Below, piece after piece: positions 3,023 through 30,098 of a stretch of DNA of 64,000 bases. The DNA is from an uncultured Clostridia bacterium. GTDB lineage: Bacteria > Bacillota > Clostridia > UBA1381. Where the stretch lies: assembly GCA_944392335.1 (NCBI GenBank), contig CALXWJ010000038.1, positions 1 through 64,000 of the forward strand, written 5' to 3'. Under the pieces are notes generated by a model. That model saw nothing but the letters and a program-made list of their open reading frames with translations. It did no database searches and was not told where the DNA came from. Each line of letters opens with the position of its first letter. Position 1 is the first letter of the stretch. The translations under genes and the position numbers were made by a program.

Positions 3023-4237
3023 ATGAATACCTTTAAAAGTTTATATTTCTATGAATGCAAAAAAATATGGAATCGGAAGATAGTAAAAATTTCTTTAATT
3101 TTATGTTTGATTTTAGTTGTTATTTCAGGAACAGTTCGATTATTCGGAAATTATGTTGTAGATGGAGAGATTTTAGGTTCTAACTATGATGAAATAAAAA
3201 AAGATCAAGGCTATGCACGTGAGCTCAATGGCAGAAAAATAGATCAAAATCTTTTAGAAGAGATGGTAGCTGCGTATCGAAAAGTTCCGGTAACTCCGGA
3301 AAAGCATTATACAGGCAGTCCTGAATACCAAAAATATGCCCGCCCGTATAGTGAAATATTTAATTTTACGATTGGTAATACCGACTTGCTTCCAATGGAT
3401 ATTTTTGAAAACTGGGAACCAAGTGAAGAATATTTGTATAGCCAGCGTCAGATCCAATTAGAGAAAAAATGGAAAGATGCCGGACTGTCAGATGGGGAAA
3501 TTAACTTTTGGCAGCAAAGAGAAAATCAGATTGAAAAACCTATTGTTTTTCAGGAAAATGAGGCATACAATCAAATATTCCTTGGATTTCAAACAATTGG
3601 ATTCATCGCCATTTTATTTCTTTCTATTTCGCTTTCCGGACTTTTTCCGGAGGAACATGGCAAAAGAACTGACCAATTGGTTTTGAGCAGTATTTTCGGA
3701 AAAAAGAAAGTATACTGGGCAAAAATACTATCCGGCGTAAGCTATGCAGTAGGAATAACGCTCTTGTTTATCGCAATCACAACAGCATTGACTTTTGCAC
3801 TTTATGGCTGTGAAGGGTTTAATGCTCCTTTCCAACTTCATTATAGAAGTAACTCAGACCCAATTTCCGTGGGTCAGGCCATGTTGATTTCCTATGGAAA
3901 TATGCTCGTTACCGCCGTACTCATTAGTATTATTGTGATGGTTTTATCAGAATTACTGCATAGCGGAATAGCGGCATTGGCAATTTCATCCGGTCTTCTT
4001 ATTGCTTCTATGGTAGTTTCTGTACCGGAATATTATAGGATTTTGTCTCAAATTTGGAATTGGCAGCCATGGTGTTTCCTTTTTCCTTCGACCATATTTG
4101 GAAAGTATACACTTTCTATATTTGGAATTCATTTTACTCCTTGGCAGTGTATACCTGTTATCTACATACTTACAAGTATGGCTATCGCCTGGGGCGGGAA
4201 ATTTGTTTATCAACGCTATCAAGTGTCAGGAAGATAG
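3023..4237 (+). CDS. ABC-2 type transporter permease
   Basis: A 404-residue membrane protein with one N-terminal helix (about 15-40), a large external loop of about 150 residues, then at least five hydrophobic helices. This is the layout of ABC-2 exporters with an extracytoplasmic domain. The ATG at 3023 follows GAGGAGG at 3007-3013; an in-frame TTG at 3005 lies inside that site and is rejected. It should form the membrane part of the transporter with the preceding ATPase. Substrate unknown. Confidence 0.85.
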   Translation: MNTFKSLYFYECKKIWNRKIVKISLILCLILVVISGTVRLFGNYVVDGEILGSNYDEIKKDQGYARELNGRKIDQNLLEEMVAAYRKVPVTPEKHYTGSPEYQKYARPYSEIFNFTIGNTDLLPMDIFENWEPSEEYLYSQRQIQLEKKWKDAGLSDGEINFWQQRENQIEKPIVFQENEAYNQIFLGFQTIGFIAILFLSISLSGLFPEEHGKRTDQLVLSSIFGKKKVYWAKILSGVSYAVGITLLFIAITTALTFALYGCEGFNAPFQLHYRSNSDPISVGQAMLISYGNMLVTAVLISIIVMVLSELLHSGIAALAISSGLLIASMVVSVPEYYRILSQIWNWQPWCFLFPSTIFGKYTLSIFGIHFTPWQCIPVIYILTSMAIAWGGKFVYQRYQVSGR

Positions 4238-4285
4238 ATAGTATTCTGTTTTAAATTGATAAACACCAAATTGTTTTCTACAGTT

Positions 4286-4323
4286 AAAACAGCCGAGGCA
4301 AATAATAACGTCTCGGCTGTTTT
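4286..4323. terminator. Bidirectional intrinsic terminator
   Basis: A 12-bp perfect stem (AAAACAGCCGAG / CTCGGCTGTTTT) with a 14-base loop. A-run and T-run flanks let it work in both directions. It separates the plus-strand ECF/ABC operon from the minus-strand signal peptidase gene. Confidence 0.8.
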
Positions 4324-4407
4324 AGTGTTTTACAGGATTGTCATGCTGCTATAACAAAGTTTTACAATGCTTAAATAAAGAAGTCGATCTTTTTTATAGA
4401 TAATCAG

Positions 4408-4788
4408 TTAGAATATCTTTGCTACGATATCTTTTTGTAATACATATGGATTTTCCCAATATCGAGAGTCATATGACCGGTTTGAGTTATCGCCCAATAC
4501 AATGTAACAATTATCCGGAACGTCATATTCATGCCCATTCATAAATATGGTTTCACCCGGGGTTGCTGCTACTCGTTTTACAAGCACATGTCCTGAATGT
4601 TTGAATGCTATAATATCGCCTTTGTCTATTTCATTGACAATCCTATATCCGAAAATTATATTACCCTTGTGAAGTGCCGGCTCCATTGAATCAGTAGGAA
4701 CATACCCAATAAAAACAATCGTCTTGAGAATGATAATAACTAAGATAGATATTAAAGCTGGAATGAGTATGGGAAAAACTTTTCTCAT
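4408..4788 (-). CDS. Signal peptidase I (S26 family)
   Basis: A 126-residue membrane serine peptidase. After a single N-terminal anchor (ILIPALISILVIIILKTIVF) come the catalytic serine (VPTDSMEPAL), the general-base lysine (VLVKRVAATPGETI) and the conserved C-terminal box (LGDNSNRSYDSRYW), so the Ser/Lys dyad is intact. The start at 4788 overlaps the sigma-like gene stop in an ATGA, implying translational coupling. A longer start at 4857 is rejected. It is the last gene of the zinc-finger/sigma/peptidase operon. Likely substrates are the signal peptides of the element's own exported proteins (SLH protein, 174-residue membrane protein, VirB2-like pilin). RP4 TraF, an S26 relative that matures conjugative pilin, is a possible functional parallel. 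Confidence 0.88.
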   Translation of the reverse strand: MRKVFPILIPALISILVIIILKTIVFIGYVPTDSMEPALHKGNIIFGYRIVNEIDKGDIIAFKHSGHVLVKRVAATPGETIFMNGHEYDVPDNCYIVLGDNSNRSYDSRYWENPYVLQKDIVAKIF

Positions 4789-5327
4789 GTAATATCCCCA
4801 TATAATTGCATAATGTCCGGTCGAGCTTTTAGAAATTTCCGTGCTTTTGATATCCATGCGGTTACAATATTGGCGGCAACGTCAAAACGTTCGCCAATTT
4901 CTTTGGCTGTTAATCCGTCATTCATCAGCACAAGTGCATCAATACCCCTTGATACAGTATTATTTGCGTCCTCCTTAGCATTTTTTAAGGCTTGTTCCAA
5001 ACTCACTTTTAAATCGGTTCCATTATAATTCACAAATACTATAGAGAGATCTTTTCCATCAGCTGTTGTTTCTGCTGCGCTGCGCTTAGATGCATAAATA
5101 AGTGCATCACATATTTCATTCCAGATAAGTCTATAGGCATAAGTAGAGAACACGCCGCCTTTGTCAGTAGCAGCAGCTTTACTGAGACCTATGCAACCAA
5201 TTTGGAACAGATCCTCATATGTATAGAAAAACATATTATTTAATCCATGTACCTTATCCTTAATAACTTTGCCGACTAATCCCATATTTTCTTCAACTAA
5301 CTTTTGCTGTTGTTCTGTCAGTTTCAT
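4785..5327 (-). CDS. Sigma-70-like factor of the conjugative element
   Basis: A 180-residue protein. Residues about 15-90 match sigma region 2 (ENMGLVGKVI, then YTYEDLFQIGCIGLSKAA and FSTYAYRLIWNEICDAL). Near the C-terminus a helix-turn-helix (LTAKEIGERFDVAANIVTAWI) occupies the region 4 position. The start at 5327 is taken because AAAGGAGGTG lies about 10 bases upstream, inside the end of the zinc-finger gene, which it overlaps by 35 bases. It could redirect RNA polymerase to element promoters, or act as an anti-repressor type regulator. No cognate promoter motif was identified. Confidence 0.75.
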   Translation of the reverse strand: MKLTEQQQKLVEENMGLVGKVIKDKVHGLNNMFFYTYEDLFQIGCIGLSKAAATDKGGVFSTYAYRLIWNEICDALIYASKRSAAETTADGKDLSIVFVNYNGTDLKVSLEQALKNAKEDANNTVSRGIDALVLMNDGLTAKEIGERFDVAANIVTAWISKARKFLKARPDIMQLYGDIT

Positions 5328-5790
5328 GATGCAGTTGCACCTCCTTTGAATAACGGATTGTGTTTTGATTTTTATTATGTCTGTGTAAGTAGAGTTTGCA
5401 TTGTTCAATGACCAAGCCGCAATAATATTCACCTAAATAGCCTATATGAGCCTGAGACAAAGGAGCATCAATAAGATTGGCTAGCCAAACATACGCCTCA
5501 TCTTTGGTCATAAGTCCGGTTTTGTATAACCGGTCAAAATAACTATGTGCTGTTTTTCTTAACATTCTGAGTTCGTGATTTGCCATAGTTCCAACCGGCA
5601 TTCTGGTACCTGTATGAGTTCTGACATAGGCATCACACTCAGGATAATTAGAACATACATAAAGCATGGTTCCACGACTGTTATCCTGATAAATACCATC
5701 GGCACTTCGGTATATGACCTTACCGCCGCAATATGGACATCTGCTTGGAGCAGTGTTAATTCCCTTTCTTTTTTTTGATTTTTTCTTCAT
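5293..5790 (-). CDS. Zinc-finger-containing protein (DUF3268 type)
   Basis: A 165-residue protein opening with a very basic tail (MKKKSKKRKG) followed by a four-cysteine zinc ribbon: CPYCGGK, then CSNYPECDAYVRTH. It continues into a helical part with LRMLRKTAHSYFDRLY and TKDEAYVWLANLI. This cysteine spacing and order fit the DUF3268 zinc-finger family of mobile elements, as I recall it. GGAGG precedes the ATG at 5790. It is the first gene of a three-gene operon under the structured leader RNA at 5813-6060. DNA or RNA binding is likely, but the target is unknown. Confidence 0.75.
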   Translation of the reverse strand: MKKKSKKRKGINTAPSRCPYCGGKVIYRSADGIYQDNSRGTMLYVCSNYPECDAYVRTHTGTRMPVGTMANHELRMLRKTAHSYFDRLYKTGLMTKDEAYVWLANLIDAPLSQAHIGYLGEYYCGLVIEQCKLYLHRHNKNQNTIRYSKEVQLHHETDRTTAKVS

Positions 5791-5812
5791 AAAATTTACC
5801 TCCAATGATAAT

Positions 5813-6060
5813 AAAAAAAGCCGGAAATCTGCAAAAATAGCAAAACAGAGCCAAGGTGCTGAAAATATTGGTGTCTCATTCAGCAATTGACTCTGTAAAG
5901 TATTAAGCAGCCTTTCCGGCTTTATATTCAGTTTTGGCTTGCATCATTATGGATCGCTCTGTGCGCTAAATCCGTAACGGTTCCTTATTCTGCATGAATA
6001 AGTCTAACACCGCGAATTCTTACGATGTACCGAGAGCCTGGATGCAAGCTCCTGTTACGA
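5813..6060 (-). ncRNA. Structured leader RNA with terminator ahead of the zinc-finger gene
   Basis: On the minus-strand transcript, P1 pairs GCTTGCATC (6049-6041) with GATGCAAGC (5945-5937). P2 pairs GCTCT (6037-6033) with AGAGC (5960-5956). Inside lie three hairpins: ACATCG/CGGTGT (6028-6023 with 6012-6007), CTTATTC/GAATAAG (6002-5996 with 5990-5984) and CCG/CGG (5980-5972). Downstream is a terminator with nested stems: AAAGCCGGAAA/TTTCCGGCTTT (5923-5913 with 5827-5817), ACAGAGTCAA/TTGGCTCTGT, GCTGAA/TTCAGC, then a T-run to 5813. ACAGAGC in P2 (5962-5956) can instead pair with GCTCTGT of the terminator (5851-5845), giving a possible antiterminator. A published DUF3268 RNA motif exists as I recall; identity was not tested. 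Confidence 0.7.
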
Positions 6061-6064
6061 TTAT

Positions 6065-6093
6065 AGTATAACAGAAGCGCCCTTATATGTCAA
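6065..6093 (-). promoter_or_regulatory. Sigma-A promoter of the structured leader
   Basis: Perfect TTGACA (6093-6088), 17-base spacer and TATACT (6070-6065) on the minus strand, placing the start of transcription near 6058, at the first base pairs of the leader RNA. This is one of the strongest promoters in the window. Confidence 0.8.
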
Positions 6094-6184: not shown

Positions 6185-6709
6185 TTAAAAATCATCATCT
6201 TCTTCGTCATTTTGCACAGTTTGCTTATTTTTGTTAGATATATGTATAGCCACAAGAATGCCTATTGCAATCATTATTCCAACTCCAAACATAACAATAT
6301 GAGTTATGGGGATCCCGGAAACATTACTTTCCTCTTTAATAGCTTTAATGGATTCTTCGGCAACAGTTTCGGCATCAATTGTAACAGGAGCCTGCATGAT
6401 TAATTCTGGGATCGCTGCAGAAGACTGCATACATGAAAGTATGTAGCTTTTGCTTCCGCCTATTTCAAGCGACAAAACTCCGGTTTCGTCTACCGGAATC
6501 AGATCAGGATATATGCCTGCATCTGTTTTTAGCATAAACTCAACACCGGTCCATTCTGTACCAAGTTGAATTTCAAGATGCTGTGCTTCAGCCACTTGGA
6601 GCTCATCACCTTCTGTTCCTTGCGCAGGGTATGCTGAGGCTGTAGTTGCCGTTACTGTACAAACGATAAAGAGAGAAATTATTATTAGTTTTTTAATTAG
6701 TTGCTTCAT
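6185..6709 (-). CDS. Exported membrane-anchored protein of the conjugative element
   Basis: A 174-residue protein with an N-terminal signal sequence (KKLIIISLFIVCTVTATTASA, cleavage probably just after) and one C-terminal membrane helix (THIVMFGVGIMIAIGILVAI) followed by an acidic tail EEDDDF. The middle 110 residues, outside the cell, contain no motif I recognise. The ATG at 6709 fits the AAAGG upstream better than the in-frame GTG at 6718. It directly follows the giant SLH protein gene on the same strand. The pair could act together at the cell surface, for example in mating-pair contact; that is inference. Confidence 0.65.
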   Translation of the reverse strand: MKQLIKKLIIISLFIVCTVTATTASAYPAQGTEGDELQVAEAQHLEIQLGTEWTGVEFMLKTDAGIYPDLIPVDETGVLSLEIGGSKSYILSCMQSSAAIPELIMQAPVTIDAETVAEESIKAIKEESNVSGIPITHIVMFGVGIMIAIGILVAIHISNKNKQTVQNDEEDDDF

Positions 6710-6787
6710 TTGGTTCACCTTTCTTACCGCAATAGAATAGTATCTGAAAGCAACCGGAAATGATTGCTTTCAGATACATGTAAAAAC

Positions 6788-9700
6788 TTATTTTATCCAA
6801 GTTTCACCGTTATCGTTTATAACGGCTTTATGTGTATTTGCTGCCTCATTTACATCGAAAAAGTACCACAAAGTATTATCAGTTACATCGGTAAAACGAT
6901 TGAGTTTTGTAAAATTATCATTGACATATTCCTTATCTGCAGTTCTGCCTGTTGCACGGTTCACAACAGTTACGACCTCTGCGCGCGTGATGTTATTATC
7001 CCCTCTGAATGTGCCATCAGCGTAACCGTTGAGCCATCCGATATGTTTTGCATAGGCAACATCATTGTATGCCCAGTAATCTTTTTCAACATCAACATAT
7101 TCAACCGTGTATCCTGTCTTGGTGACATCGTTGAACAATTCATAATATCTAACTGCCATAGCAACAAACTCAGCTCTTGTAACTGAATTGTCCGGTTTAA
7201 ATGTACCATCGCTGTAACCATTTATAATATCATACTTAGCAAGATATCCTAAATATTCAGTATACCACTCATTATTATCCACATCTTTGAATGATGATTT
7301 GCCGCTTATCTTTTCACCTTTTTGCTCTGAAATAAGTCTTGCAAAAATAGCAGCAGCTTCGGCACGGCTCATATCATTATCAGGACGGAATGTACCATCG
7401 TCATATCCAACTATATATGCTTCATGTTCTACTGCCGGAAGAATAAGTACACCGTTTGAATCAGTTGTTCCTGTAAGTTCATTGTTGTTTCTATCTTTTA
7501 AAATAACACTATAGTCTGATTTTGCTTTACCATTTCTATCTGTTACAGTGATGGTATAATAATTATCATCCTTTGCAAGATTCTTTCCTGTAGGCAGGGT
7601 AAGCGTTACTTTGTCAGTACCGATTGATTTTGTTACGCTTACATTGTTCCCGTCTTGATCAACAACCTTTACATTTACAGAAGAGTAGCTGCTAAGGCCG
7701 CCACCACCGCCACCACCGGAGCTTCCACCTGACGATGAACCGCCGCCTCCGGAGGATTTAACCGGCAATGTAACCTGACCGTTTGAGTTTGTAATACCGG
7801 TTTTTGACGTTGTTTTATCTTTTATCGTTACGGAAACACCTTGAACAGGCTTGTCATCTTTATCTGTAATTGTTACAGTGGTTTGATTACTGGTAGTTAA
7901 TGTTTTATCTTCCGGAAGAGTAACTGTTACCTTGCCATCTTTGATTTCGACAAAAGAGCCAGTAATAATGCCTTTTGTGTCTTTGACCGATACTTTATAT
8001 GACGTAGTTATAACTTCGCCCGGCTTATCCTCAACGCCATCGCCATCTGTGTCTTCACCCTTACCGGGAGTTTCTTCACTTACGTCTGAATCACCATTAT
8101 CATCCGTAACATCTTCAGATAGAGGAGGCAATATGATCTTACCGTCTTTATTTGTAATTCCACTTAGTGTTTTAGTTTCGCTATCAGGTTTTACTAACTC
8201 TGAAACAATAACAGCCATATCCTTGACAGCTGTACCATCAGCCTTATTTATGACAGTTACAGTAATACGGTTTTCATAATCAAACTTTACATTTTCCGGG
8301 AGTTCAATAGATATGTTTTCTGCTGTTTTAATGCTTCCATCCTCGTTTTTGATCTCAGGATTATGTGTAACAAAAGCTTTTTCAATTGCACCGATCTCAT
8401 TCACGACCGTTACAATATATCCATCAACCTCTGAATAGCCGTTTACGTCAGTGTAATCTGTATTAACCGGTGGGACTGTTGCAATACCGTCAGAATTTGT
8501 TACATCCGAAACTGTTGTTCCATCTTTAGCCACAACATCAACTAACACGCCTTTTACAGGAGTTCCTTCTTTATCTGTTACGGTTACAACAATCCTGTTA
8601 TCAGAAAGTATATTCGTACCTTCCGGAAGCATTGCCTTTATTTTTCCTGTTTCCTTATCAACAGTTACAATTGTTCCGACAACAGCACCGTCATTATTTT
8701 CGACTTTAATATTATATGAATATATCGGCTGTTCAATAGGATCATCAGGTTCTTCTGTTGGATCATCAGGATTTGTAGATGGATCATCGGGTTCTTCCGT
8801 TGGATTATCAGGATCTGTAGATGGATCATCGGGTTCTTCTGTTGGATTATCTGGATTTGTAGATGGATCATCAGGTTCTTTATCTCCATCGTCTGTTGTA
8901 ACATCACCACCTGTATTGTCATCACCTATTTCATCCTCATTAAGCGGAGGAACTATGATCTGTCCTTTGAAATTTGTCATTTCGGTTCTTGTTGCTTCTG
9001 TATTGTCTTTGACCGTGACACTCATATCTTTTACAACTGTTCCATCTTTTTTTAGAACTGTTACAGTTACGCGGTTATCATAGTCTATAACACTCCCTTC
9101 AGGAAGCTCAACTGAAATTGTATTATCCTCGTTATAGGTTACGAGTGCACCGGCAATGTTTTTACTTTCGTCACTTACCAAAACGATAAAATCGCCCACA
9201 CTGACACGACCATTCTGGTCTGTATACCCAATATTTCCGTCCGGCAGCGTAACCTTTCCATCTATGTCAGTAGTTCCTTTTTCAATGAAGTCACTCATAC
9301 CGATTACAATAACATTGATATTGGGCTGAGCGTTGCCATTCTGATCCGTTACTGTTACTGTAATCCTATTGTCATTATCCATTACAGTGCCATCCGGTAA
9401 TTTTACCACAATATCATTACTTTCACCTATTGCAACTGCACATTTCGGAATAATAAGACCATTTTTATCAGTAACCGTAACTACATAGGTAAAGGTCTGT
9501 TCCTCGTTTTCGCCGCCAATGGTTCCATTATCATCTTCAGTTGATGAGCTGCTGTTTGGAACCTTAAGCTGACCGTTTTCGTCTGTTTTTCCTGTTGCGG
9601 CATTGTTATTTGTGTCATAAATAAATATCTGTAAATCTGATTTTGCTGACTGCGTATCAGTATAGATAGCCGTTATAGTTGTTTGATCTGAATAGTCAAG

Positions 9701-12346
9701 TAATCTACCGCTTGGCAGCTTGATTGTTACATTATCGTTTATGTCAATAGTGATTTCACTGTTGAATATTGGCTTGCCGTTCTTATCAGTCAAGATTATT
9801 AAATAATCTCCAACTTCGGCGTTGCCGTCCTCGTCTGAATTGTCTGTATCAATAAGCTGCGGAATCTCAACTGTCTGCAATACTGCACCGCAAACAATAC
9901 ATTCTATATGTTTTTGTCCTGGCGCCTCAATTGTTGCCGGCGTGTCAATAATCCAATCAGATACTGTATGTCCGGTTGCTTCTACATATTCACCTTTATA
10001 TGTATCGCCGCAGTCTTCGCAAGTGTAAGTTGTATATCCAAGTTCAAGACAAGTAGGCAGTGTCACTTCTTCTGTGTAACGATGTGGCTTTTTGTCTGTG
10101 TAGTTATCTTTGTATTCATCACCGCATTGTTCACATTTAAAGATAGTATACCCAATTTCAGTACAGGTCGGCTCAATGACAGTTTCAACGTAATGATGTT
10201 GCACGCAATCGGTATAATCGCCAATATATGACTTGCCGCAATCAGGGCATGTATATATCGCATAGCCGTGTTCCGTACAGGTTGGTTCTACAACTTCTTT
10301 ATTGTAATTATGTTCTGTCATATCAGTATAGTCAGCTTTATAGGTATCACCACATTGTTTACAAGTATAGGTGGTATATCCCATAGATGTACATGTAGGC
10401 TGTGTGATAACAGATTCATATTCATGAGGTAATTTTTCAGTATAATCCGAAATGTACTCTTCGCTGCAGTTTTTACAAGAATAAGTTGTAAACCCATGTT
10501 CGGTGCATGTAGGAACAGTTACCGTCATGCTATAATCGTGATCCAGCATATCAGTGTAATCACCTACATAGCTGTCACCGCAATCACATGTATAAGTTGT
10601 ATAACCCATAGAAGTACATGTGGGAGGTATTACTTCACTATGATAATGATGTCCTGTCGGCATTGCCAAAACAGTTTGACAAACTTCACATATTTGAGGT
10701 TCCGTACAGGTCGCAGCTTTTCCAGGAGTGTGTCCGGTAGCAGAATCAGCTTTTATCATTTTTTCATTGCACCCGTCATTTTGGCAATGGTATTCCGTAA
10801 CACCTTCGCTTGTGCAGGTAGAACTTGTAATGATATGTCCTTCATCCCAGTTATGTCCAGTAGGATCTGTATAGTCTGACACATAAGAGCTACCGCACAT
10901 AGTACATGTATACGTTGTGTACCCCTTGTCTTCACAGGTCGGTTTTTTTGTTATACTTTCGTATGCATGAGAAATAAGCGGTTTGATATCGGTAATGTAA
11001 TTATCACCGCATATATCACAGATGTGTTCTGTATAACCCACATTTCTGCAGGTTGGATTTATAACATTTGTTTTATAGGTATGTGCCCCGGTTGGTGTGG
11101 TTGTCTGATAAAAATCACCACAGTTTTTACAAACTGAAAGAATGAGTCCTCCTTGCATGCAGTTAGCTTCTCTTATCACTATATCTTCATGATCATGCCC
11201 AATTGCAGGAGTATAGTTTTTCTTTTCAAGTTGTCCGCACCCGCTGCATTGCCAGCGTTCATATCCCAAATTTTCGCATGTCGCTGGAACTGTTTCAATA
11301 TATCTGAAATCATGCTCATGTGCAGGGGGGATGATTATAACCGTGTCATCTCCCGACTCATCATCTGATGCACTATCATTAAGCAGCCATACATAGGAAA
11401 CACCATTCTCTACCATATCCTCGCCGGAATACGAATAGGTGATTTCATAGTATACTGTATAATATCCTGCCTTAGTGTAGTTCGGTGCGCTTGTTTGTTT
11501 GCAATTGTCAGCACTATCGCCATAACGGACTAAGGTTTTAACACCGCTGTCAGAAAGATCTGATACGGTTACCGTATGTGCTTCGCCGTCTGCTGTTCCA
11601 TAATAAGAACTTACAACTGATTTTGCTGTTACATATTCACTTTTTTCAAAATTACAATCATCACAATGCTGTAACACATAAAAACGGTTGTTGCCAATTT
11701 GACCATCTATCTGCTCATTAAAATTATGTGCTTCTCGCACAGATGATGCTTGAGCTTTTGTACCTTTACAAAATTGACAATATTTTCCCGCCTTATATAC
11801 AGTGGTGTGATAATTCTCATTATACGGAGTATAAGTGGTATTATCAAAATCCAAGAAAAAATTATGGTCACAAGAATTGAGACTATAAAGATTCTTATTA
11901 AAGTTATATGCATCCACTCCGTCAACCGCATTGATTGTCCCGCAATTCTGGCATACGCTTTTCGTCCAGTGGTTGCCTGTGTAATAAGCATCTATACCCG
12001 GCGTACCGCTGTCAAGATTACCAACCTCGGTACCATCAATATTTCTTCCGTCTGAAAACCAGACACCATGATTTTTAGCAGTTTCGCCGCTTCTTGTATA
12101 TTCAGGTACACGATACGTTAACACTGTAGTTTCTTTATCGCATACAGGGCACCATGATGTCTCGTATGTGGTCGTAGCATTAACATCTAATTCATTTGTT
12201 CTGTTGTTTGATGACAGCCAGCTGTCAGCAGGGTCTACATACTCGTTTGACTGTGCAGCAAAGGTTGTAACAGGAGCCGCGCTTATAAGCATACACATTG
12301 TCAGTAAGGCTGATAAAACTGATTTTAATTTAGATTTGTTTTTCAT
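6788..12346 (-). CDS. Giant SLH-anchored surface protein with Cys-pair repeats
   Basis: A 1852-residue secreted protein. A signal peptide ends near residue 31 (AAPVTTFAA). Four CxxC pairs lie in the first 230 residues. About twelve repeats of roughly 38 residues follow between about 360 and 830, each with a TC near its start and a CxxCG (consensus PTCTEHGYTTYTCxxCGDxY). Next are beta-rich modules of the carboxypeptidase-regulatory/Ig-like kind (VTVTDKNGxP ... TDxDGxVxLP), an acidic DDPSTNPDNPTEEP repeat block (about 1154-1202), a Gly/Ser linker (about 1530-1550) and three SLH domains (about 1640-1825) that bind secondary cell-wall polysaccharide. AAGGAGG precedes the ATG. Its place among T4SS genes suggests an adhesin or mating-aggregation factor; the Cys repeats look like small metal-binding or disulfide knuckles. 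Confidence 0.88.
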   Translation of the reverse strand: MKNKSKLKSVLSALLTMCMLISAAPVTTFAAQSNEYVDPADSWLSSNNRTNELDVNATTTYETSWCPVCDKETTVLTYRVPEYTRSGETAKNHGVWFSDGRNIDGTEVGNLDSGTPGIDAYYTGNHWTKSVCQNCGTINAVDGVDAYNFNKNLYSLNSCDHNFFLDFDNTTYTPYNENYHTTVYKAGKYCQFCKGTKAQASSVREAHNFNEQIDGQIGNNRFYVLQHCDDCNFEKSEYVTAKSVVSSYYGTADGEAHTVTVSDLSDSGVKTLVRYGDSADNCKQTSAPNYTKAGYYTVYYEITYSYSGEDMVENGVSYVWLLNDSASDDESGDDTVIIIPPAHEHDFRYIETVPATCENLGYERWQCSGCGQLEKKNYTPAIGHDHEDIVIREANCMQGGLILSVCKNCGDFYQTTTPTGAHTYKTNVINPTCRNVGYTEHICDICGDNYITDIKPLISHAYESITKKPTCEDKGYTTYTCTMCGSSYVSDYTDPTGHNWDEGHIITSSTCTSEGVTEYHCQNDGCNEKMIKADSATGHTPGKAATCTEPQICEVCQTVLAMPTGHHYHSEVIPPTCTSMGYTTYTCDCGDSYVGDYTDMLDHDYSMTVTVPTCTEHGFTTYSCKNCSEEYISDYTEKLPHEYESVITQPTCTSMGYTTYTCKQCGDTYKADYTDMTEHNYNKEVVEPTCTEHGYAIYTCPDCGKSYIGDYTDCVQHHYVETVIEPTCTEIGYTIFKCEQCGDEYKDNYTDKKPHRYTEEVTLPTCLELGYTTYTCEDCGDTYKGEYVEATGHTVSDWIIDTPATIEAPGQKHIECIVCGAVLQTVEIPQLIDTDNSDEDGNAEVGDYLIILTDKNGKPIFNSEITIDINDNVTIKLPSGRLLDYSDQTTITAIYTDTQSAKSDLQIFIYDTNNNAATGKTDENGQLKVPNSSSSTEDDNGTIGGENEEQTFTYVVTVTDKNGLIIPKCAVAIGESNDIVVKLPDGTVMDNDNRITVTVTDQNGNAQPNINVIVIGMSDFIEKGTTDIDGKVTLPDGNIGYTDQNGRVSVGDFIVLVSDESKNIAGALVTYNEDNTISVELPEGSVIDYDNRVTVTVLKKDGTVVKDMSVTVKDNTEATRTEMTNFKGQIIVPPLNEDEIGDDNTGGDVTTDDGDKEPDDPSTNPDNPTEEPDDPSTDPDNPTEEPDDPSTNPDDPTEEPDDPIEQPIYSYNIKVENNDGAVVGTIVTVDKETGKIKAMLPEGTNILSDNRIVVTVTDKEGTPVKGVLVDVVAKDGTTVSDVTNSDGIATVPPVNTDYTDVNGYSEVDGYIVTVVNEIGAIEKAFVTHNPEIKNEDGSIKTAENISIELPENVKFDYENRITVTVINKADGTAVKDMAVIVSELVKPDSETKTLSGITNKDGKIILPPLSEDVTDDNGDSDVSEETPGKGEDTDGDGVEDKPGEVITTSYKVSVKDTKGIITGSFVEIKDGKVTVTLPEDKTLTTSNQTTVTITDKDDKPVQGVSVTIKDKTTSKTGITNSNGQVTLPVKSSGGGGSSSGGSSGGGGGGGLSSYSSVNVKVVDQDGNNVSVTKSIGTDKVTLTLPTGKNLAKDDNYYTITVTDRNGKAKSDYSVILKDRNNNELTGTTDSNGVLILPAVEHEAYIVGYDDGTFRPDNDMSRAEAAAIFARLISEQKGEKISGKSSFKDVDNNEWYTEYLGYLAKYDIINGYSDGTFKPDNSVTRAEFVAMAVRYYELFNDVTKTGYTVEYVDVEKDYWAYNDVAYAKHIGWLNGYADGTFRGDNNITRAEVVTVVNRATGRTADKEYVNDNFTKLNRFTDVTDNTLWYFFDVNEAANTHKAVINDNGETWIK
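8735..8890 (-). repeat. In-gene 42-bp tandem repeat (Asp/Pro-rich linker)
   Basis: About three and a half copies of a 42-base unit encode DDPSTNPDNPTEEP-like 14-residue blocks in the giant surface protein. The copies differ by a few bases. It is an extended acidic spacer whose copy number could vary by slippage. Confidence 0.8.
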
Positions 12347-14465: not shown

Positions 14466-16373
14466 TTAAAATTCGCTTGGTGGCGATGCTGAACTGTACA
14501 ATTTTCGTTTAGATGTCGGTTTGGTAAAAGAAGATTCCTTTGATGTTTCTATGCATTCTGAAGGCTCGACCGGGCTCTCATTCTGATAAACAGTGGATTT
14601 GTAAATATCAGTATGGAGGAAAGAACTCGATTTATAATCCATAATTGAAACCCTGTTAATTTTTTTGCTCATTGGATGCTTTGTGTAATCCAGTTTATTA
14701 AGCTTTAGTACATTGTACCCTCTTATGATACACAGAAGTTCTTCGTTTGGAAGTCTGAGTACCTCATCAGGAGTCAATAGCTTTCTGCGTCCTTGTCCTT
14801 CGGTATGACGATACTGCGGAATAACCTGTGCAACCGCCATCGTTTGCCTTACTGTCATAGTAGTATTGATTTGTATACTCATATCACCTGCACGATCAGA
14901 ATAAAACGATGCTGTTTCACTATCTGAGCAGCCGAGCATAAGCTGAATATCTGCATTGCCGAGTATTTCGAGCCACAAATTGTTGGGATATCGGTTCTGC
15001 AATTGTCCCAAACTTTGCACTGCCATCATTACTCGAATTTCTCGAGAACGAATTACGCTTAGTGTTCTCGCAAAATCACTTCCATCTGCCGCACCTCCGA
15101 TTTTTCCAATATTATTAAATTCATCTAAGATTAGATTAACTGGCACTTTACAGCGCTGTTCCGGTGTGGAGTCTGCATACCGTGTCAGTTTGGTAAACAG
15201 GAATGAGAAAAAAAGTGAGGAAAGGAATGCCATTGTAGTATTCTGGTCACTTAATATAATAAAATATGCACACTTTTGCTTACCCGGAGCTGTAAGGTCA
15301 ATGTCAGACCGACTTGTAATCGCTGCGACGGATTTGTTTTGAAGAACCTGAAGTCTGGTGCCCAGCCCAATTATAATACCGGAGCGAACCGTGTCGCTTG
15401 CTTGAGCAAATAAATTATATGGAGCCCTTGCCGGATGATCTAATGGCAGCTTTTCAAACATCGCTGTAAGCTGCCGTTCACTATACTGAGTCAATAACTG
15501 GTACACTGCCGGCAGATTCTTCATCTCCGGCGTTCTTGTAGGATCAAAATCCACATATAATACCAACGCTTTTAACAGATTGCTCTCACCATTGTCCCAG
15601 AAATGATCACCTTTACCGCTGCTTGTGTTGCCGATTATAATGTTCGTTAAATCCTGTGCAAGGAGAGTGTCACCATGTAAATCAGACATACAGTTCCACG
15701 AATCACCATGTTCAGGATGCACTAAATTAAATACTTTTACCTCATATCCATTATTTTTAAACAGCATAGCAGTGTCAGAGTAAAGTTCGGCTTTTGGGTC
15801 AGTGATTACCACTGATTCATTTCTTTTTATTGCCTGAAAAAGTGCGTTTCGAATAATCGCTCGAGATTTCATTGTTCCTGATGCACCAAAAATCGCTATA
15901 TGACGATTCAGTTTGGTATCCTTAGGCATACACACGGCATTTCCTTTATATTCACCCAAAATAACACCGTCCGCCTTCCCGGGTGCTGCAACCTCCAAAA
16001 CCTCTTTCATTTCTTTTTCAGTCATCCATGATGCTGTTCCGTAAACACCTGTTTTACTTTTAACAAACCCTCTTGGGTCATAGTCTTTGCCATCAAATTT
16101 ATCATGAAGTTTGATATATGCAAAAATAGCAGCACCGATTGCTATGATGATAAGCATTGCTTTCATTCCACTTGCTGTAAATGACTGCCGAAAACATTGT
16201 ATCATGCCCCAATTCACCATGCTCATTGGACTATCACCAGATATCCCACCAGACTCAAGCCAGTTTGCATAATTGTTTAGCAATTGCCCCAGTAAACCGG
16301 ATAGATACACTAAAGCTGTCAATCCCAGTATGACAATAAGAGCGATTCCCGCAACTCTTCGTTTATCATCCAC
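14466..16373 (-). CDS. VirD4/TraG-type conjugative coupling ATPase
   Basis: A 635-residue type IV coupling protein. Two N-terminal membrane segments (IALIVILGLTALVYLSGLLG and AMLIIIAIGAAIFAYI) precede the RecA-like motor with Walker A FGASGTMKS (about residue 168) and Walker B VNLILDEFNNIG (about 413). TDPKAELY and SREIRVMMAVQSLGQL are also typical of the VirD4 family. It links the relaxed DNA to the secretion channel at the membrane. The GTG at 16373, 8 bases after AGGAGG, is preferred to the GTG at 16382, which overlaps that site. The C-terminal 60 residues are Ser/Thr-rich. The gene starts 16 bases after the preceding one. Confidence 0.93.
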   Translation of the reverse strand: MDDKRRVAGIALIVILGLTALVYLSGLLGQLLNNYANWLESGGISGDSPMSMVNWGMIQCFRQSFTASGMKAMLIIIAIGAAIFAYIKLHDKFDGKDYDPRGFVKSKTGVYGTASWMTEKEMKEVLEVAAPGKADGVILGEYKGNAVCMPKDTKLNRHIAIFGASGTMKSRAIIRNALFQAIKRNESVVITDPKAELYSDTAMLFKNNGYEVKVFNLVHPEHGDSWNCMSDLHGDTLLAQDLTNIIIGNTSSGKGDHFWDNGESNLLKALVLYVDFDPTRTPEMKNLPAVYQLLTQYSERQLTAMFEKLPLDHPARAPYNLFAQASDTVRSGIIIGLGTRLQVLQNKSVAAITSRSDIDLTAPGKQKCAYFIILSDQNTTMAFLSSLFFSFLFTKLTRYADSTPEQRCKVPVNLILDEFNNIGKIGGAADGSDFARTLSVIRSREIRVMMAVQSLGQLQNRYPNNLWLEILGNADIQLMLGCSDSETASFYSDRAGDMSIQINTTMTVRQTMAVAQVIPQYRHTEGQGRRKLLTPDEVLRLPNEELLCIIRGYNVLKLNKLDYTKHPMSKKINRVSIMDYKSSSFLHTDIYKSTVYQNESPVEPSECIETSKESSFTKPTSKRKLYSSASPPSEF

Positions 16374-16389
16374 TGAATTCACCTCCTAA

Positions 16390-19057: not shown

Positions 19058-21586
19058 CTATGGCTTTTTACTTTTCTTTCTGTCCTTTAGAATTGCCTCA
19101 AGTTCGGCACGGTCTGTTGTAATCATTTCCTGTTCTTCCTTTGAGGCCTTAATCACCACAGGAACCTTGTTGTTATTAGAATATACCAATGCCTCGCCTC
19201 GCTCAAAACGTGTGATGGAACGCATTTCTGTTTTGGTTAGCTTCAAAACATCCTGAACATACCTTGCTTCATCAGGTTCAAGATTCAAAATAATCTTATT
19301 TTTTGAATTGTTAACAATGGCTCTGCCATATTTTCCATCTTCCAGACTAAAAAAGTCCGATAAGTCTTGTGTTGCCGAAATTGCTGCTCCTCCAAAACCT
19401 CGTATGGTTTTAAATATGGTCAAACAGAAATCAGCAGCCTGTTTATTAGAAGACGCACCGATTAATTGCCATATCTCATCAATTAAAATAGCTTTTTTCT
19501 TTGTTCTATCTGCTTTGATATTATCCCATACATAATCAAGAGCTATCATCATTCCTACAGGCAGTAATTTTCCTTTTAGCTCTGATAAGTCAAGCACTAT
19601 ATATTTATTAGATAAATCCACATTTGTTTGCCGATTAAATGATTGAGCAGAGCCGGTTACAAATCGGCTTACAATGACTGCAATACGTTCAGTCATTGGA
19701 TTACCCAAAAGATTTTTATGCAAATCGCCGAGTATTGGCATCTTCTTCATTTTTGGAGGAGAAGCAGACGCATCAACATAAAGTGACTCATTGTCATGTG
19801 TGATACCAAACTCGGCATATGTCTTAATCAACGCTTCGTCTAACATTTGTTCTTCTTCATTTGACATATCAGGGATAAGCAATGAGAAGAAAATCATTAA
19901 CTGCTGAATCTTTCGGGCCAGCATGGAATCCATTTCGCTATAATCAATCTCATCAATTAACTCCATCTCGGGAGTAATCGTATGACGTATCTCCATAACA
20001 TTGATACAGTGTGGAGAACCGGGAGCAATTTTAATATACTGTCCGCCTATATGATTACAAGCTCTTCTGAATTCATGTCCTTTTATAGGAGCTAATATAT
20101 AGCACTGAATACCTCTCATACGCATACGCAGTGCTAAAAGCTGCATTGTAAAAGTTTTACCTGCTCCGCTTGTACCCAGCAGGTTTAAATTTGCGTTTTT
20201 GTTTTTCTTTGTGTTAAACAAATCCACAATACAAAGTGAATTGTTATGGCGGTTTACACCAAGCAATACTCCTGTATCATCTGACATTTCAAAGCTTGTG
20301 AACATATATGTGGAAGCAGCACCGCTTGTTAAAACATTTCTGCGAGATTTCTTCTCAAGAAATGGCACGATACTCAAAAAAGGCATAACTGATTTTAATG
20401 CAGCCTCTTGCTTAAAACGGCAATCGCTTGTATACATATCCATTGATTTGAGCATATCTGTCATTTGCTGTTTTCGCCACATAAGTTCTTCATAGCTTTT
20501 TGCCGAAATGGTGATGAATATAGACATATAGAATAAATCCTCATTATTATTTGCAATACCGTTTTTTATAAAATAACCTGATTGAATTGAGTTGGTTAAT
20601 TCCTCAAAATCGGTACTGGTATCCTGCATACTCTTTAACTTGGTACGGTTCAGTCTGATACGCTGCGCAACCTTATCAATGGTCTTGCTTCTATTTTCTC
20701 GCCGCAGATGTACATCAACATCAATTCCTTCGCCAGCATTTATGAGAGATGACATCCACCCAGCACGAACTGCACTTGGATATCCATCACCTTTTATGTA
20801 AAGGAAAGAGTAGTATAAGCCATCCATAATAATGTAATTACTGTGATTCAGTGCAATTCCCCTTGGAGCTATAAAGTTCACCATTTTTATATGTGGAACA
20901 GGATCAATTCCTATAACTTTATTTTTTGCTGCCATAGTATCTATTACAACACGATTGACTCTCGATGAAAATGGTTCGTCAACACATGATCTGCGGTTGA
21001 AAAACATATATAGTATCTCGGCAACTGCTTCATCAGGATCTTTGGGTTGGAGTATGGTATTTCCGCACTGCAAAAAATATGCTCTTGCTGTTTGTTCAGC
21101 AGTTTGCAGTGCGCCATATATTTTCCCTAAATCATCGCTGTCAGTACGATGAAGTTCCTCATACTGAAATATAAGAAAAAAACGTCGTGTTAAAGCTTCA
21201 CGGCTTCCGACGTCTTTAATTAACTTGATATAACCTTCACCAAGATGTTTGCATTGTTCATTATCTTCAGATTCAAGTTCTTTTGTCACCATGGAAACGT
21301 GCTTGTCGGAGTCAGCTTTCCTTGTAATACTCTTAAACTGAAGCTGCATTGGTGAAATTTTAAGCCAACTTGCAAATGAGGAAATAATTCCAAATTGTTC
21401 TTCACTTGAACGGAGCATAAAATTGATTGGCTCTATTTCTAAAATTTTTATGTATCTTCCATCGGTGGTTTTTATGACACCGTAATTTATATCTTTAACA
21501 GGTATAAAATCTTGTACAAACTCAAGTTTTTCCGGCTTCCTTTTTTGTTTTGCCTTTTTTTCTCTTTTTGGGCCGGTCTTGGCCAT
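19058..21586 (-). CDS. virB4: VirB4/TraE-type conjugation ATPase
   Basis: An 842-residue cytoplasmic motor of the type IV secretion system. After a basic N-terminus (KTGPKREKKAKQKRKPEK) comes the VirB4 N-terminal domain, then the ATPase with Walker A LLGTSGAGKTFTMQLL (about residue 469), Walker B KKAILIDEIWQLIGAS (about 699) and a downstream ISATQDLSDFF. Length and motif order are usual for the TraE/VirB4 family of Firmicutes. The ATG at 21586 is chosen by its upstream AGAAGGG; the reading frame to 21676 lies inside the previous gene. It overlaps the PrgI gene by 65 bases. It energises channel assembly and pilus handling. Confidence 0.93.
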   Translation of the reverse strand: MAKTGPKREKKAKQKRKPEKLEFVQDFIPVKDINYGVIKTTDGRYIKILEIEPINFMLRSSEEQFGIISSFASWLKISPMQLQFKSITRKADSDKHVSMVTKELESEDNEQCKHLGEGYIKLIKDVGSREALTRRFFLIFQYEELHRTDSDDLGKIYGALQTAEQTARAYFLQCGNTILQPKDPDEAVAEILYMFFNRRSCVDEPFSSRVNRVVIDTMAAKNKVIGIDPVPHIKMVNFIAPRGIALNHSNYIIMDGLYYSFLYIKGDGYPSAVRAGWMSSLINAGEGIDVDVHLRRENRSKTIDKVAQRIRLNRTKLKSMQDTSTDFEELTNSIQSGYFIKNGIANNNEDLFYMSIFITISAKSYEELMWRKQQMTDMLKSMDMYTSDCRFKQEAALKSVMPFLSIVPFLEKKSRRNVLTSGAASTYMFTSFEMSDDTGVLLGVNRHNNSLCIVDLFNTKKNKNANLNLLGTSGAGKTFTMQLLALRMRMRGIQCYILAPIKGHEFRRACNHIGGQYIKIAPGSPHCINVMEIRHTITPEMELIDEIDYSEMDSMLARKIQQLMIFFSLLIPDMSNEEEQMLDEALIKTYAEFGITHDNESLYVDASASPPKMKKMPILGDLHKNLLGNPMTERIAVIVSRFVTGSAQSFNRQTNVDLSNKYIVLDLSELKGKLLPVGMMIALDYVWDNIKADRTKKKAILIDEIWQLIGASSNKQAADFCLTIFKTIRGFGGAAISATQDLSDFFSLEDGKYGRAIVNNSKNKIILNLEPDEARYVQDVLKLTKTEMRSITRFERGEALVYSNNNKVPVVIKASKEEQEMITTDRAELEAILKDRKKSKKP

Positions 21587-21914
21587 ATTTATATCCCACC
21601 CTTCTGAAATGTAATATTCTTCTACTGAGTAAATAACGGAATATGTGCCCGGTATACTGAAATAAAGAATCTCCATCGATTCCCATCATTGCAATAACTG
21701 CCAGTGGGATTATTGTGATTGTCATAACAACAATACGAATTGTCCCAGGCATAGGAATAAGCATTAATTCCGGATAGCCTATAAGAATAACCACTATAGC
21801 TGCTTCAATTGCATTTCTCGGTTCAAGCATTCCTCCAAATATTTTTCCTGAATCAGTATAGTTTGCCGGTATGGCATAAATATTGTTATATTCTTTTTCT
21901 TCCAATTTATTCAC
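21522..21914 (-). CDS. PrgI/VirB3-like membrane protein
   Basis: About 130 residues: a soluble start (EEKEYNNIYAIPANYTDSG), two adjacent membrane helices (AAIVVILIGYPELMLIPM and IRIVVMTITIIPLAVIAMM) and a very basic tail (KYGQDRPKKRKKGKTKKE). This is the PrgI layout, the Gram-positive equivalent of VirB3, nearly always next to virB4 as here. The start is uncertain: GTG at 21914, 5 bases after the preceding stop, or TTG at 21905. The TTG at 21938 would overlap the upstream gene. Confidence 0.82.
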   Translation of the reverse strand: MNKLEEKEYNNIYAIPANYTDSGKIFGGMLEPRNAIEAAIVVILIGYPELMLIPMPGTIRIVVMTITIIPLAVIAMMGIDGDSLFQYTGHIFRYLLSRRILHFRRVGYKYGQDRPKKRKKGKTKKEAGKT

Positions 21915-21918
21915 CTGC

Positions 21919-23685
21919 TTACCTGTAAATTGTGGCAATTATTTTATATCGTCCTAATTTAAGAGCTTCAGAGTGTGTTTTTACAAATATGTCCACACGA
22001 TGTATGTCATTAAATTCCGGACCGCCACGATCTTCCACGGTATATATATTCCCGTTAATCATAAGCTTTGTACCAAATGGATACTGAGAAGACATTGCAA
22101 CCATCCCAACAGCCAAAGGTTTTCCGCTTGCTGACATAGCTAAACTATTCCCATTACACTGATAGCATGGACAATAATGCGTTACTTCTACCTCAAGTGT
22201 ATAAGAATCACCTTGAGGCAGATCCATTCCTCCAGAAACAGCAGCATTATAATCTACATTTTTAGGTCGCCGCAAAACAAGTGATGATTCATAACTTGGA
22301 CTATTTAAAACAACGCCGCTGCCACTGGATGAATGAACCCACATTCGTTCACCGTTTGTACCGTAACCTGCAAACATAAGAACATGATTCCAACCTCCGC
22401 CTCCGGAGCCTGCTAAGAAACCCAGATCTCCGATTTGCAGATCGGATGAAGAAACAGCGGTTGTCTTAGGATACTGTCCACCGGTGCCATCGCCGATATG
22501 TATGCCGAGTGCTGTATCATAGATCCATGTTGTAAATCCACTGCAATCCAATCCGAATGGTCGGATTGTACCTGAACTTGATGAGCCGGCAGCTGTAACC
22601 AATTTAGGAGTATTCCATTCATCGTTCCAGCCTGCAGGGCTTTTCCCGCCCCAAAAGTATGGGACTTTCCCAACAAGCGAAAGACCCGTTTCAAGGAGAA
22701 GTCTTCGCACTCCTGTTACATTTTGACTATTTACATAGGCAATTAGTTCAGCATCGGTTAAAGGTACACTCTGACCTGTTCCTAAAGACCCATATAGTGT
22801 CTTTTTTAAAGCGTTTGCCATATTGTTTATTACTTCACCATATGTTGTATTAAACTGATTGTAAGCCGCATTTTCATCAATCCCAAATGCCTCGGTAATA
22901 ACTGTATTGTCAAATGGATGAATTGTACATTCAACATAAGTTACAGTCTGGGGTGTTTCTGAACCATCTGATCCTGTTATGGTTTTTTCTCCTGTTTTCT
23001 CTTCGTATGTAACAGGGAACATACGATCAGCAACAGCATTCATTTTCGAAATCATATCTTCTTTACTTGTATTTCTTTGCTGCATAGAAGCGGAGTAAGC
23101 TGAAAGTATATAACATGTATCATAACCCGCAGAACTTTGAGCATAGTTTATAAGTGCTTCCATGGATAAATCATAATCATATCCACCGGAAGAAATAATG
23201 TTTTCAACTTTGGAAAATGACGTGTTATAACCATTTTCAATCACCTCTGAAACTACAGGTACAAGCTCATTGTAGCTTGAATCAATTGTTGCGCCCTCCG
23301 CTGGTTTGGTACCATTTGTACCAAATACACTATCAGTAACGATAGAGGGAAGGGAAACAATCAATACTATAAAAAAAACAAGACACAAGCATATACAAAT
23401 CAATACTTTAAATAAGGTGTGCCGCATAGACCATGCCGCAGCAATCGCCGCACCAACAGGTCCGCCTGCGGCTGTGCCTGTTGCAATTTCAGCAACTGCT
23501 TTTCCACCCTCAACACCTGCTTTAACAGTTGCCGCGGCAGCGGTGGCTGTTGCCTCTGCACCTTTAACCGCCGTTTCCTTTGCTGCTGTTTTCCCAGCCT
23601 GTTTTGCAGCATTTGCCATTTGTTTAGCCGCCCCGGCATAATTATCGGAGCCTTCGCCAAACTGATTTTTTTGTTCATCTGCCAT
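21919..23685 (-). CDS. Conjugation cell-wall hydrolase: NlpC/P60 plus 3D domain
   Basis: A 588-residue VirB1-type wall enzyme. Residues 1-75 are Ala/Lys-rich and probably cytoplasmic; one membrane helix follows (VLICICLCLVFFIVLIVSL). The NlpC/P60 peptidase has its catalytic Cys in FGLDCSGFTTWIY (about residue 375) and His in WNHVLMFAGYG (about 434). A C-terminal 3D domain runs from about 500 with THYCPCYQCNG, GTKLMINGNIYTVEDRGG and HRVDIFVKTHSEA. Together they can cut stem peptides and possibly glycan, opening peptidoglycan for the mating channel. AAAGGAGGTG precedes the ATG at 23685. It lies between the VirB6 and PrgI genes. Confidence 0.9.
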   Translation of the reverse strand: MADEQKNQFGEGSDNYAGAAKQMANAAKQAGKTAAKETAVKGAEATATAAAATVKAGVEGGKAVAEIATGTAAGGPVGAAIAAAWSMRHTLFKVLICICLCLVFFIVLIVSLPSIVTDSVFGTNGTKPAEGATIDSSYNELVPVVSEVIENGYNTSFSKVENIISSGGYDYDLSMEALINYAQSSAGYDTCYILSAYSASMQQRNTSKEDMISKMNAVADRMFPVTYEEKTGEKTITGSDGSETPQTVTYVECTIHPFDNTVITEAFGIDENAAYNQFNTTYGEVINNMANALKKTLYGSLGTGQSVPLTDAELIAYVNSQNVTGVRRLLLETGLSLVGKVPYFWGGKSPAGWNDEWNTPKLVTAAGSSSSGTIRPFGLDCSGFTTWIYDTALGIHIGDGTGGQYPKTTAVSSSDLQIGDLGFLAGSGGGGWNHVLMFAGYGTNGERMWVHSSSGSGVVLNSPSYESSLVLRRPKNVDYNAAVSGGMDLPQGDSYTLEVEVTHYCPCYQCNGNSLAMSASGKPLAVGMVAMSSQYPFGTKLMINGNIYTVEDRGGPEFNDIHRVDIFVKTHSEALKLGRYKIIATIYR

Positions 23686-23746
23686 GCGGTACACCTCCTT
23701 TATATATAAACAGACAGCCAAAGTTCAGTTTGACTGTCCGATTGTT

Positions 23747-28886: not shown

Positions 28887-30098
28887 TTAATTTACTACCA
28901 ATACTGGTTTAATGTTGTCATCCGTGAATTGATTAAAAGTAACTGAAGATTCAAGTGCATTTTTGGCTATAACTCCCATTTTCTCCGTTACATGTGTATA
29001 ATACCTTAATGTAAATTCAAGTTTTGAGTGTCCGAGCATTTCTTGAACATATCGTGGGCTTATTCCGCTTTCTGCCAATATAGTGGCATATGTATGTCTC
29101 AGATTATGAAATTTGAAATCAATGCCTAACTCAGCTTTTATTGTACGTGACATAAATTTAATACTATTTGTGGTCAACATTTCTCCATTGACTTTTACGT
29201 TTACAAAATCAGTTACTTCAATAAGTTTTTCCTTATTTTTAATTAATCTTTCAGTGACAAAATTTCTTTTATACCCATCTTTGTAAAGACTTTTGTTTTC
29301 TTCGTGAGCATTCTTTAACTTTTTCAAATAATTGCAAAAGCTGTCAGTGATATTCACACTTCTATACGCATTTTTTGTTTTTAATGGACAGAAGCACCAC
29401 TTTTTATCTTGAAAAAGAAGTTGCTTTGATATTTTAATTTTTTTATTTTCAAAATCTATATCTTCCCATCGTAATGCAAAAACCTCGCTCTCTCTTAATC
29501 CTGTATTTAATGCTATATAGTATGATACAATTATATTGGTACTTTGTAATCTTTCTTCCATAGCCTTAAGTTCTTCGCAGCTATACGCTCTGATATCACC
29601 TACATGTCTCGGATCGGGAGGAGCTATAACATCCGAAAAGATATTTTTCTTTGTATATTTTCGCTTATATGCAAAGCTAAATAAAACCTTTAAAAACTTA
29701 AAAAATCCTTTTACATATTCTTCACTATAACAAATAGATTTCTCATTTATAAAGTCATTAATCATGCTTGCACTTATTTGATAGACATAATATTTCCCGA
29801 ACGCAGGATGTAAGTGGTTTTTGTATAAGGATTTATACCTGACTATTGTTGCATATGCTCTTGTCGCTGGAGCTTCTTTTTCAATAAATTCATTATACAC
29901 TTCCTCAAATGTAATTTTCTTATTTTCAACATAGTCACCTGTGCAATTATAATTATATATAACCTCATGCATAGCAGCGGTAGCTTCCTTTTTGGTTTTG
30001 TATCCACTGCGTTCTATTTGACTGCGTTTTCCGTTAATAACACCTAAATCAATTCTGTATGACCATGTTGCACCTTTTTTTCGTACACTTCCTTTCAT
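28887..30098 (-). CDS. int: Tyrosine recombinase (ICE integrase)
   Basis: A 403-residue phage-type integrase. An N-terminal arm-binding domain (MKGSVRKKGATWSYRIDLG) is followed by a SAM-like core-binding domain (TFEEVYNEFIEKEAPATRAY) and the catalytic domain with Arg in NTGLRESEVFALRW (about 200), the HxxR box HNLRHTYATI (about 335), His in LGHSKLEF (about 358) and the nucleophile Tyr in LRYYTHV (about 367). All catalytic residues are present. AGGAGG precedes the ATG. It integrates and excises the element; repeated TTTCCCACG sites upstream look like its arm sites. It marks the right end of the ICE. Confidence 0.93.
   Translation of the reverse strand: MKGSVRKKGATWSYRIDLGVINGKRSQIERSGYKTKKEATAAMHEVIYNYNCTGDYVENKKITFEEVYNEFIEKEAPATRAYATIVRYKSLYKNHLHPAFGKYYVYQISASMINDFINEKSICYSEEYVKGFFKFLKVLFSFAYKRKYTKKNIFSDVIAPPDPRHVGDIRAYSCEELKAMEERLQSTNIIVSYYIALNTGLRESEVFALRWEDIDFENKKIKISKQLLFQDKKWCFCPLKTKNAYRSVNITDSFCNYLKKLKNAHEENKSLYKDGYKRNFVTERLIKNKEKLIEVTDFVNVKVNGEMLTTNSIKFMSRTIKAELGIDFKFHNLRHTYATILAESGISPRYVQEMLGHSKLEFTLRYYTHVTEKMGVIAKNALESSVTFNQFTDDNIKPVLVVN

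Follow-up and report, generated by a model that had tools for sequence, protein, structure and literature searches.

Organisation of the locus

The leader of the DUF3268 operon in the analysed window, a 64,000-nucleotide stretch of DNA from an uncultured Clostridia bacterium, probably acts as a cis-acting conditional transcription attenuator, a reading to which we assign a probability of about 0.62. On the minus strand, the window carries in this order a promoter, a structured RNA, a short linker, a hairpin followed by a U-tract, a Shine-Dalgarno (SD) sequence, and the ATG of the DUF3268 gene at position 5790. The promoter, the RNA, the terminator, and the gene are conserved together in relatives, and helices of both the RNA and the terminator covary. 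The features of the leader are as follows:

6065-6093, minus strand: sigma-A type promoter, with -35 TTGACA at 6093-6088, an extended TG-n element, and -10 TATACT at 6070-6065
5936-6056, minus strand: DUF3268 RNA domain (Rfam RF02966)
6041-6050, minus strand: 5' strand of P1, pairing with 5945-5936
5978-6032, minus strand: three-way k-junction with C helix CGGU/ACCG, NC helix, T helix, and GA/GA linkers (RF02966 alignment)
5951-5973, minus strand: P3 hairpin with the conserved GAGC (RF02966 alignment)
5936-5945, minus strand: 3' strand of P1 (cmscan alignment)
5813-5923, minus strand: long nested intrinsic terminator, with outer arms at 5923-5907 and 5832-5817 and a U-tract at 5819-5813
5909-5921, minus strand: small alternative hairpin AGCC-loop-GGCU, formed by the terminator 5' arm alone and excluding the outer terminator stem; a candidate antiterminator
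5845-5896, minus strand: covarying inner terminator stem ACAGAGUCAA (5896-5887) / UUGGCUCUGU (5854-5845) with an apical hairpin
5799-5803, minus strand: SD sequence GGAGG of the DUF3268 gene, read from the sequence

In the proposed mechanism, RNA polymerase would start at the dedicated promoter and at once make the DUF3268 RNA, in which P1 closes the k-junction and is accompanied by the P3 hairpin, before moving through a short linker into a very strong terminator hairpin. The stretch from the terminator to the SD sequence is too short for another promoter, so that the operon, comprising genes for the DUF3268 protein, an optional sigma-like protein, and an S26 signal peptidase, would be made from this promoter only upon terminator readthrough. 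We infer regulated readthrough with the RNA domain in control; most likely, the domain would sense a small molecule or a protein and thereby alter the chance of passing the terminator. Stabilisation of the small hairpin in the 5' arm would block the outer terminator stem. The few tens of nucleotides that lie between the U-tract and the start codon make a role in cis difficult to escape, whether or not the terminated RNA has other functions.

The promoter, TTGACA-17-TATACT, has a 17-nt spacer, an extended -10 element, and 11 of 12 consensus matches, so that the "perfect" promoter of an earlier sequence-only reading of this DNA is real, but good rather than perfect. In 28 of 30 leaders, 22-25 nt, and mostly 24 nt, separate the end of the -10 element from the CAGGC motif in the RNA, which places the start of the RNA at about +1. 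The same reading had described a structured leader with a strong nested terminator ahead of the ribosome binding site, and folding supports both elements, with z-scores against shuffled sequences of -5.9 for the whole leader and -7.85 for the terminator. A small membrane-anchored protein without a Pfam match is encoded at 6185-6718 on the minus strand, and most relatives have conserved its gene immediately ahead of the promoter.

The DUF3268 RNA domain

A cmscan search against Rfam identified the structured RNA as RF02966, with a score of 110 bits against a gathering score of 65.3, an E-value of 3e-22, and complete coverage of model positions 1-121; it is the sole Rfam match in the 64-kb window at the gathering score. 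The name "DUF3268 RNA motif", given in the earlier reading, was thus the right one. In the RF02966 alignment, the window RNA has P1, the three-way junction, and P3 (the P2 of the earlier reading), along with the conserved stretches CAGGCUYUCGG, CGUUACGG, and GAGC, the last being invariant within P3 in our alignment A1. The sequence elements of the k-junction are present as well; the k-junction fold, with its sheared G:A pairs, was shown for the family (PMC10573300). Judged by this full-length match, with the same helices, conserved loops, and neighbouring gene, the window locus adds a member to an orphan RNA family that was already known.

The family was one of 224 candidate RNAs of a 2017 survey; its three-way junction is a k-junction, for which metal-ion-induced folding and a crystal structure (PDB 8ITS) are described in a paper that also calls the family one without an assigned function (PMC10573300). 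The k-junction architecture is shared with the TPP riboswitch, from which the DUF3268 RNA differs in sequence, in associated genes, and in having no known ligand; the junction can be swapped only as a piece of architecture (PMC10573300). The Rfam model ends at P1, leaving outside it the terminator, the near-fixed promoter spacing, and the operon. What is added here is the terminator module, its covariation, and a census of the operon; the 2017 discovery survey may already have noted the terminator.

The terminator and its conservation

The terminator at 5923-5813 folds at -45.2 kcal/mol, compared with -21.2 +/- 3.1 kcal/mol for shuffled sequences. A simple terminator scan misses it because its loop exceeds 8 nt. 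The U-rich stretch at 5844-5833 behind the inner stem could act as a second U-tract, and direct reading of the relatives revealed an inner stem followed by its own U-rich stretch ahead of the outer 3' arm in most leaders. This layout suggests that the structure may consist of two terminators nested in one.

A terminator with a U-tract lies between the RNA and the next ribosome binding site in 28 of the 30 leaders examined. RNAalifold, applied to 24 aligned leaders, recovered P1, parts of the junction, P3, and both terminator stems unprompted, with two-sided changes in 25 of 46 pairs. When the terminator was analysed alone, based on the structure of a single row, pairing held in 89.0% of cells and two-sided changes occurred in 16 of 34 pairs (7.2 +/- 1.9 in shuffles), while pairing fell to 47% or less when the partner was slid by one column. 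In one control for these stems, the segments were chosen by hand, with a bias in favour of the stems; the shuffle and slide test is the fairer one. Compensatory changes in homologues, for which the earlier reading had asked, were found both for the terminator and for P1, where they affect 7 of 9 pairs. For example, the inner stem ACAGAG/CUCUGU is replaced by GCAGAG/CUCUGC in L003 and L040, by ACAGAA/UUCUGU in L053, and by GCAAGAUG/CAUCUUGU in L050, and the outer stem GCCGGAAG/CUUCCGGC becomes GCCGAAAG/CUUUCGGC in L002 and GCCGAAAA/UUUUCGGC in L040.

Several leaders depart from this pattern. L018 and L034 have an unrelated terminator sequence at the same place, the terminator of L026 is a short simple stem, and about 60 extra nucleotides separate the RNA from the terminator in L053. 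In L047 and L049, the U-tract is lost and a long hairpin directly abuts the SD sequence upstream of the DUF3268 gene; without a U-tract, this hairpin cannot be an intrinsic terminator. The hairpins of these two leaders differ from each other by a compensatory change of A-U to G-C.

RNAs such as put, EAR, and conAn2 make polymerase pass whatever terminator follows. The replacement or displacement of terminators behind an unchanged RNA in L018, L026, L034, and L053 would suit an RNA of this kind, namely a compact ICE-borne antiterminator that binds polymerase while nascent and behind which terminators are interchangeable. The position of the RNA at about +1 with nearly fixed spacing, the lack of a conserved pairing between RNA and terminator, and the presence of nested terminators, hard to defeat by one refolding, point the same way, and an ICE precedent exists in canT of Tn916 (PMC11658703). 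However, RNA and terminator are on one transcript, and constitutive action would make the terminator pointless unless it were conditional or depended on a 5' end at +1. The simple scan, which misses loops of more than 8 nt, detected no further same-strand terminator within the short operon, and among the families that Rfam models, none other than RF02966 was matched in the window at the gathering score. Overall, we regard direct action on polymerase as unlikely.

Like the DUF3268 RNA, canT is an ICE-encoded, cis-acting, complex folded RNA paired with a terminator controlling element genes; it comprises a region of 341-452 nt that was shown to act on heterologous terminators, and its terminators lie downstream of it only after excision (PMC11658703). 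For the DUF3268 RNA, the natural terminator swaps support such action only indirectly. If this RNA did act on polymerase, canT would be joined by another antiterminator RNA from an ICE, whose core has already been crystallised.

Alternative pairings

The sequence-only reading had proposed a mutually exclusive switch, in which the 3' strand of P3, ACAGAGC (5962-5956), pairs with GCTCTGT of the terminator (5851-5845) as an antiterminator. Both strands occur at these positions and form a perfect 7-bp complement in the window. Across 24 leaders, however, 77.4% of cells were paired against a shuffled mean of 77.3%, and two-sided changes numbered 1 against 0.6 expected. The pairing is complete (7/7 pairs) in 2 of 19 leaders checked by hand, L001 and L009; in L002, L005, L021, and L050 the terminator strand is altered without a matching change in the RNA strand. 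What pairing is left is explained by GAGC and GCUC each being conserved for other reasons. Moreover, the switch would leave closed the outer stem that ends in the U-tract. It was therefore rejected as a conserved mechanism for want of covariation, and we consider it very improbable.

When all four-pair helices that could join the RNA to the terminator were scanned, none showed clear covariation, and no covarying antiterminator sharing an aptamer strand, as expected of a riboswitch, emerged from the same comparison. Unlike in classical riboswitches, P1 did not consistently overlap a terminator arm in the leaders. Pairing of the P1 3' strand with the terminator 5' arm was also considered as an antiterminator; it is good in many leaders and was rejected after it failed by inspection in L018, L020, L034, L040, L047, and L053. 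The pairing of CAGGCU with AGCC of the terminator 5' arm is present in more than 90% of cells but is invariant, so covariation cannot decide on it. Leader-peptide attenuation was rejected, since no conserved open reading frame with an SD sequence was found in the leaders.

The small hairpin in the terminator 5' arm is the sole alternative fold that persists in nearly all relatives. It is paired in 96.9% of cells, with too little variation for a covariation test, which leaves it weakly supported, and it is the minimum free energy state of the 5'-arm segment in 26 of 30 nascent leaders, that is, with the outer 3' arm not yet made. Its loop is mostly GNRA across leaders and has five bases in the window. 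The folding calculations make it the best candidate antiterminator, and no more than a candidate. ANTAR and BglG-type systems employ protein-bound antiterminator hairpins. By analogy with ANTAR (PMC3369936) and BglG-type systems, the small hairpin, which shares sequence with the terminator 5' arm, might serve as an antiterminator, but the DUF3268 operon encodes no such protein and the role of the hairpin is putative.

The case for a conditional attenuator thus draws on the covarying terminator between promoter and SD sequence, with L047 and L049 as exceptions, and on the retention of a U-tract terminator even where its sequence is unrelated or short. Further support comes from the near-fixed spacing of promoter and RNA, the lack of a conserved leader peptide, the self-folding of the 5' arm, and the occurrence of the same RNA-terminator-SD module ahead of a different gene in L025. 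Against it stand the lack of a covarying pairing between RNA and terminator, the loss of the U-tract in two leaders, the insert in L053, the near invariance of the small hairpin, and the filing of the family as sRNA by Rfam.

Operon genes

The operon was predicted to encode the following proteins:

5293-5790, minus strand: DUF3268 zinc-ribbon protein of 165 aa (PF11672, 4e-50; AlphaFold mean pLDDT 86)
4785-5327, minus strand: sigma-70 region 2-like protein (PF04542, 6.9e-8), an optional operon member
4408-4857, minus strand: S26 signal peptidase (PF10502, 2.2e-21), a nearly constant operon member

The first gene had been correctly recognised as coding for a DUF3268 zinc-finger protein. The sigma-like factor and signal peptidase, named earlier as the genes under control, are both present in the window, but the former is not a defining target, its gene being absent from seven relatives (L020, L026, L034, L037, L043, L047, and L049). 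The signal peptidase is present in all intact operons with enough sequence except L050. Where enough sequence is available, the DUF3268 gene directly follows the leader in all relatives except L019, where it is deleted and a remnant of the sigma-like gene is left, and L025, where an intact RNA-terminator-SD module (4222-4458, minus strand; RNA score 104.7 bits) precedes a gene for a secreted lipoprotein. The L025 module has a different promoter.

As a sub-case of attenuation, the DUF3268 zinc-ribbon protein could bind its own leader and act as the trigger. The RNA and the DUF3268 gene are usually adjacent, and DUF3268 proteins encoded behind the RNA (L002-L053) have a Lys/Arg-rich N-terminal tail that is missing in two RNA-less relatives, L074 and L075. 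The N-terminal ribbon resembles topoisomerase I zinc ribbons, with a Pfam match (5e-6) that falls short of the cut-off, and a weak match of the model to 4rul (VIA Z 4.5, rmsd 2.7 over 47 residues); a Foldseek search with the DUF3268 fold returned nothing at E <0.001. Apart from the weakness of the structural match, autogenous control is at odds with the genome of L025, which has the intact RNA module and no DUF3268 gene, bearing in mind that this genome is a MAG and may be incomplete. DUF3268 proteins without the RNA were found in four genomes (G134, G332, G423, and G430). We consider autogenous control unlikely.

Relatives and distribution

About 40 relatives were gathered from conjugative elements of Clostridia. 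When 84,980 species genomes were scanned with a pattern, 43 matches were obtained, of which 38 are real and belong, according to record titles, to Clostridia and related Firmicutes; the pattern matches L014, L015, L016, L028, and L046 and the weak match L066 were dropped as unrelated DNA. Whole-genome searches added further relatives, including the divergent L050, L051, and L053. The RNA is rare, being present in 5 of 393 genomes of the class; no copies were found in phages and plasmids by blastn or in viral contigs by the pattern scan.

Two genomes, G743 and G1114, carry the RNA and no DUF3268 gene. They could be taken to favour a trans-acting sRNA, the product being a terminated RNA of about 240 nt and the downstream genes living on leaky readthrough; the sRNA type given to RF02966 in Rfam and the combination of its own promoter with a strong terminator would agree with this. 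On the other hand, nearly every copy lies directly ahead of an SD sequence and a gene, another gene is in place in G743, and L047 and L049 have no intrinsic terminator. Both copies in G1114 are decayed, L019 being followed by the sigma-like remnant and L044 being truncated. A function primarily in trans thus seems quite unlikely. In L044 and L067, a truncated DUF3268 RNA is joined to an apparent relaxase reading frame.

Conjugative element context

The surroundings of the operon in the window represent a conjugative element, in agreement with its earlier description as an ICE operon. The following genes were identified nearby:

14466-16382: VirD4-like coupling protein
19058-21676: VirB4/TraG-like ATPase
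21919-23721: NlpC/P60 protein
28887-30098: tyrosine integrase

In the three elements examined over 40 kb, the operon is at the same end of the transfer module. The DUF3268 RNA can be recast as the 5' half of a module of promoter, RNA, and terminator, which is conserved in conjugative elements of gut Clostridia and would gate an operon located at one of their ends. This links the RNA to the way in which ICEs are known to employ terminators and antiterminators, as in canT of Tn916.

No direct repeat of the right end was found in this contig that could mark the left end of the ICE, and the contig seems to start inside the element. A 49-nt match with 80% identity, involving DNA at the right element edge, connects positions 30393-30441 of the window with positions 35316-35364 of another contig (C15) of the same genome; it is possibly an att-like site. 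A surface protein of 1852 aa, encoded at 6788-12346 on the minus strand, contains three SLH domains, Big_1 domains, and many repeats of the YTCxxCG type, and might be processed by the S26 signal peptidase of the nearby operon.
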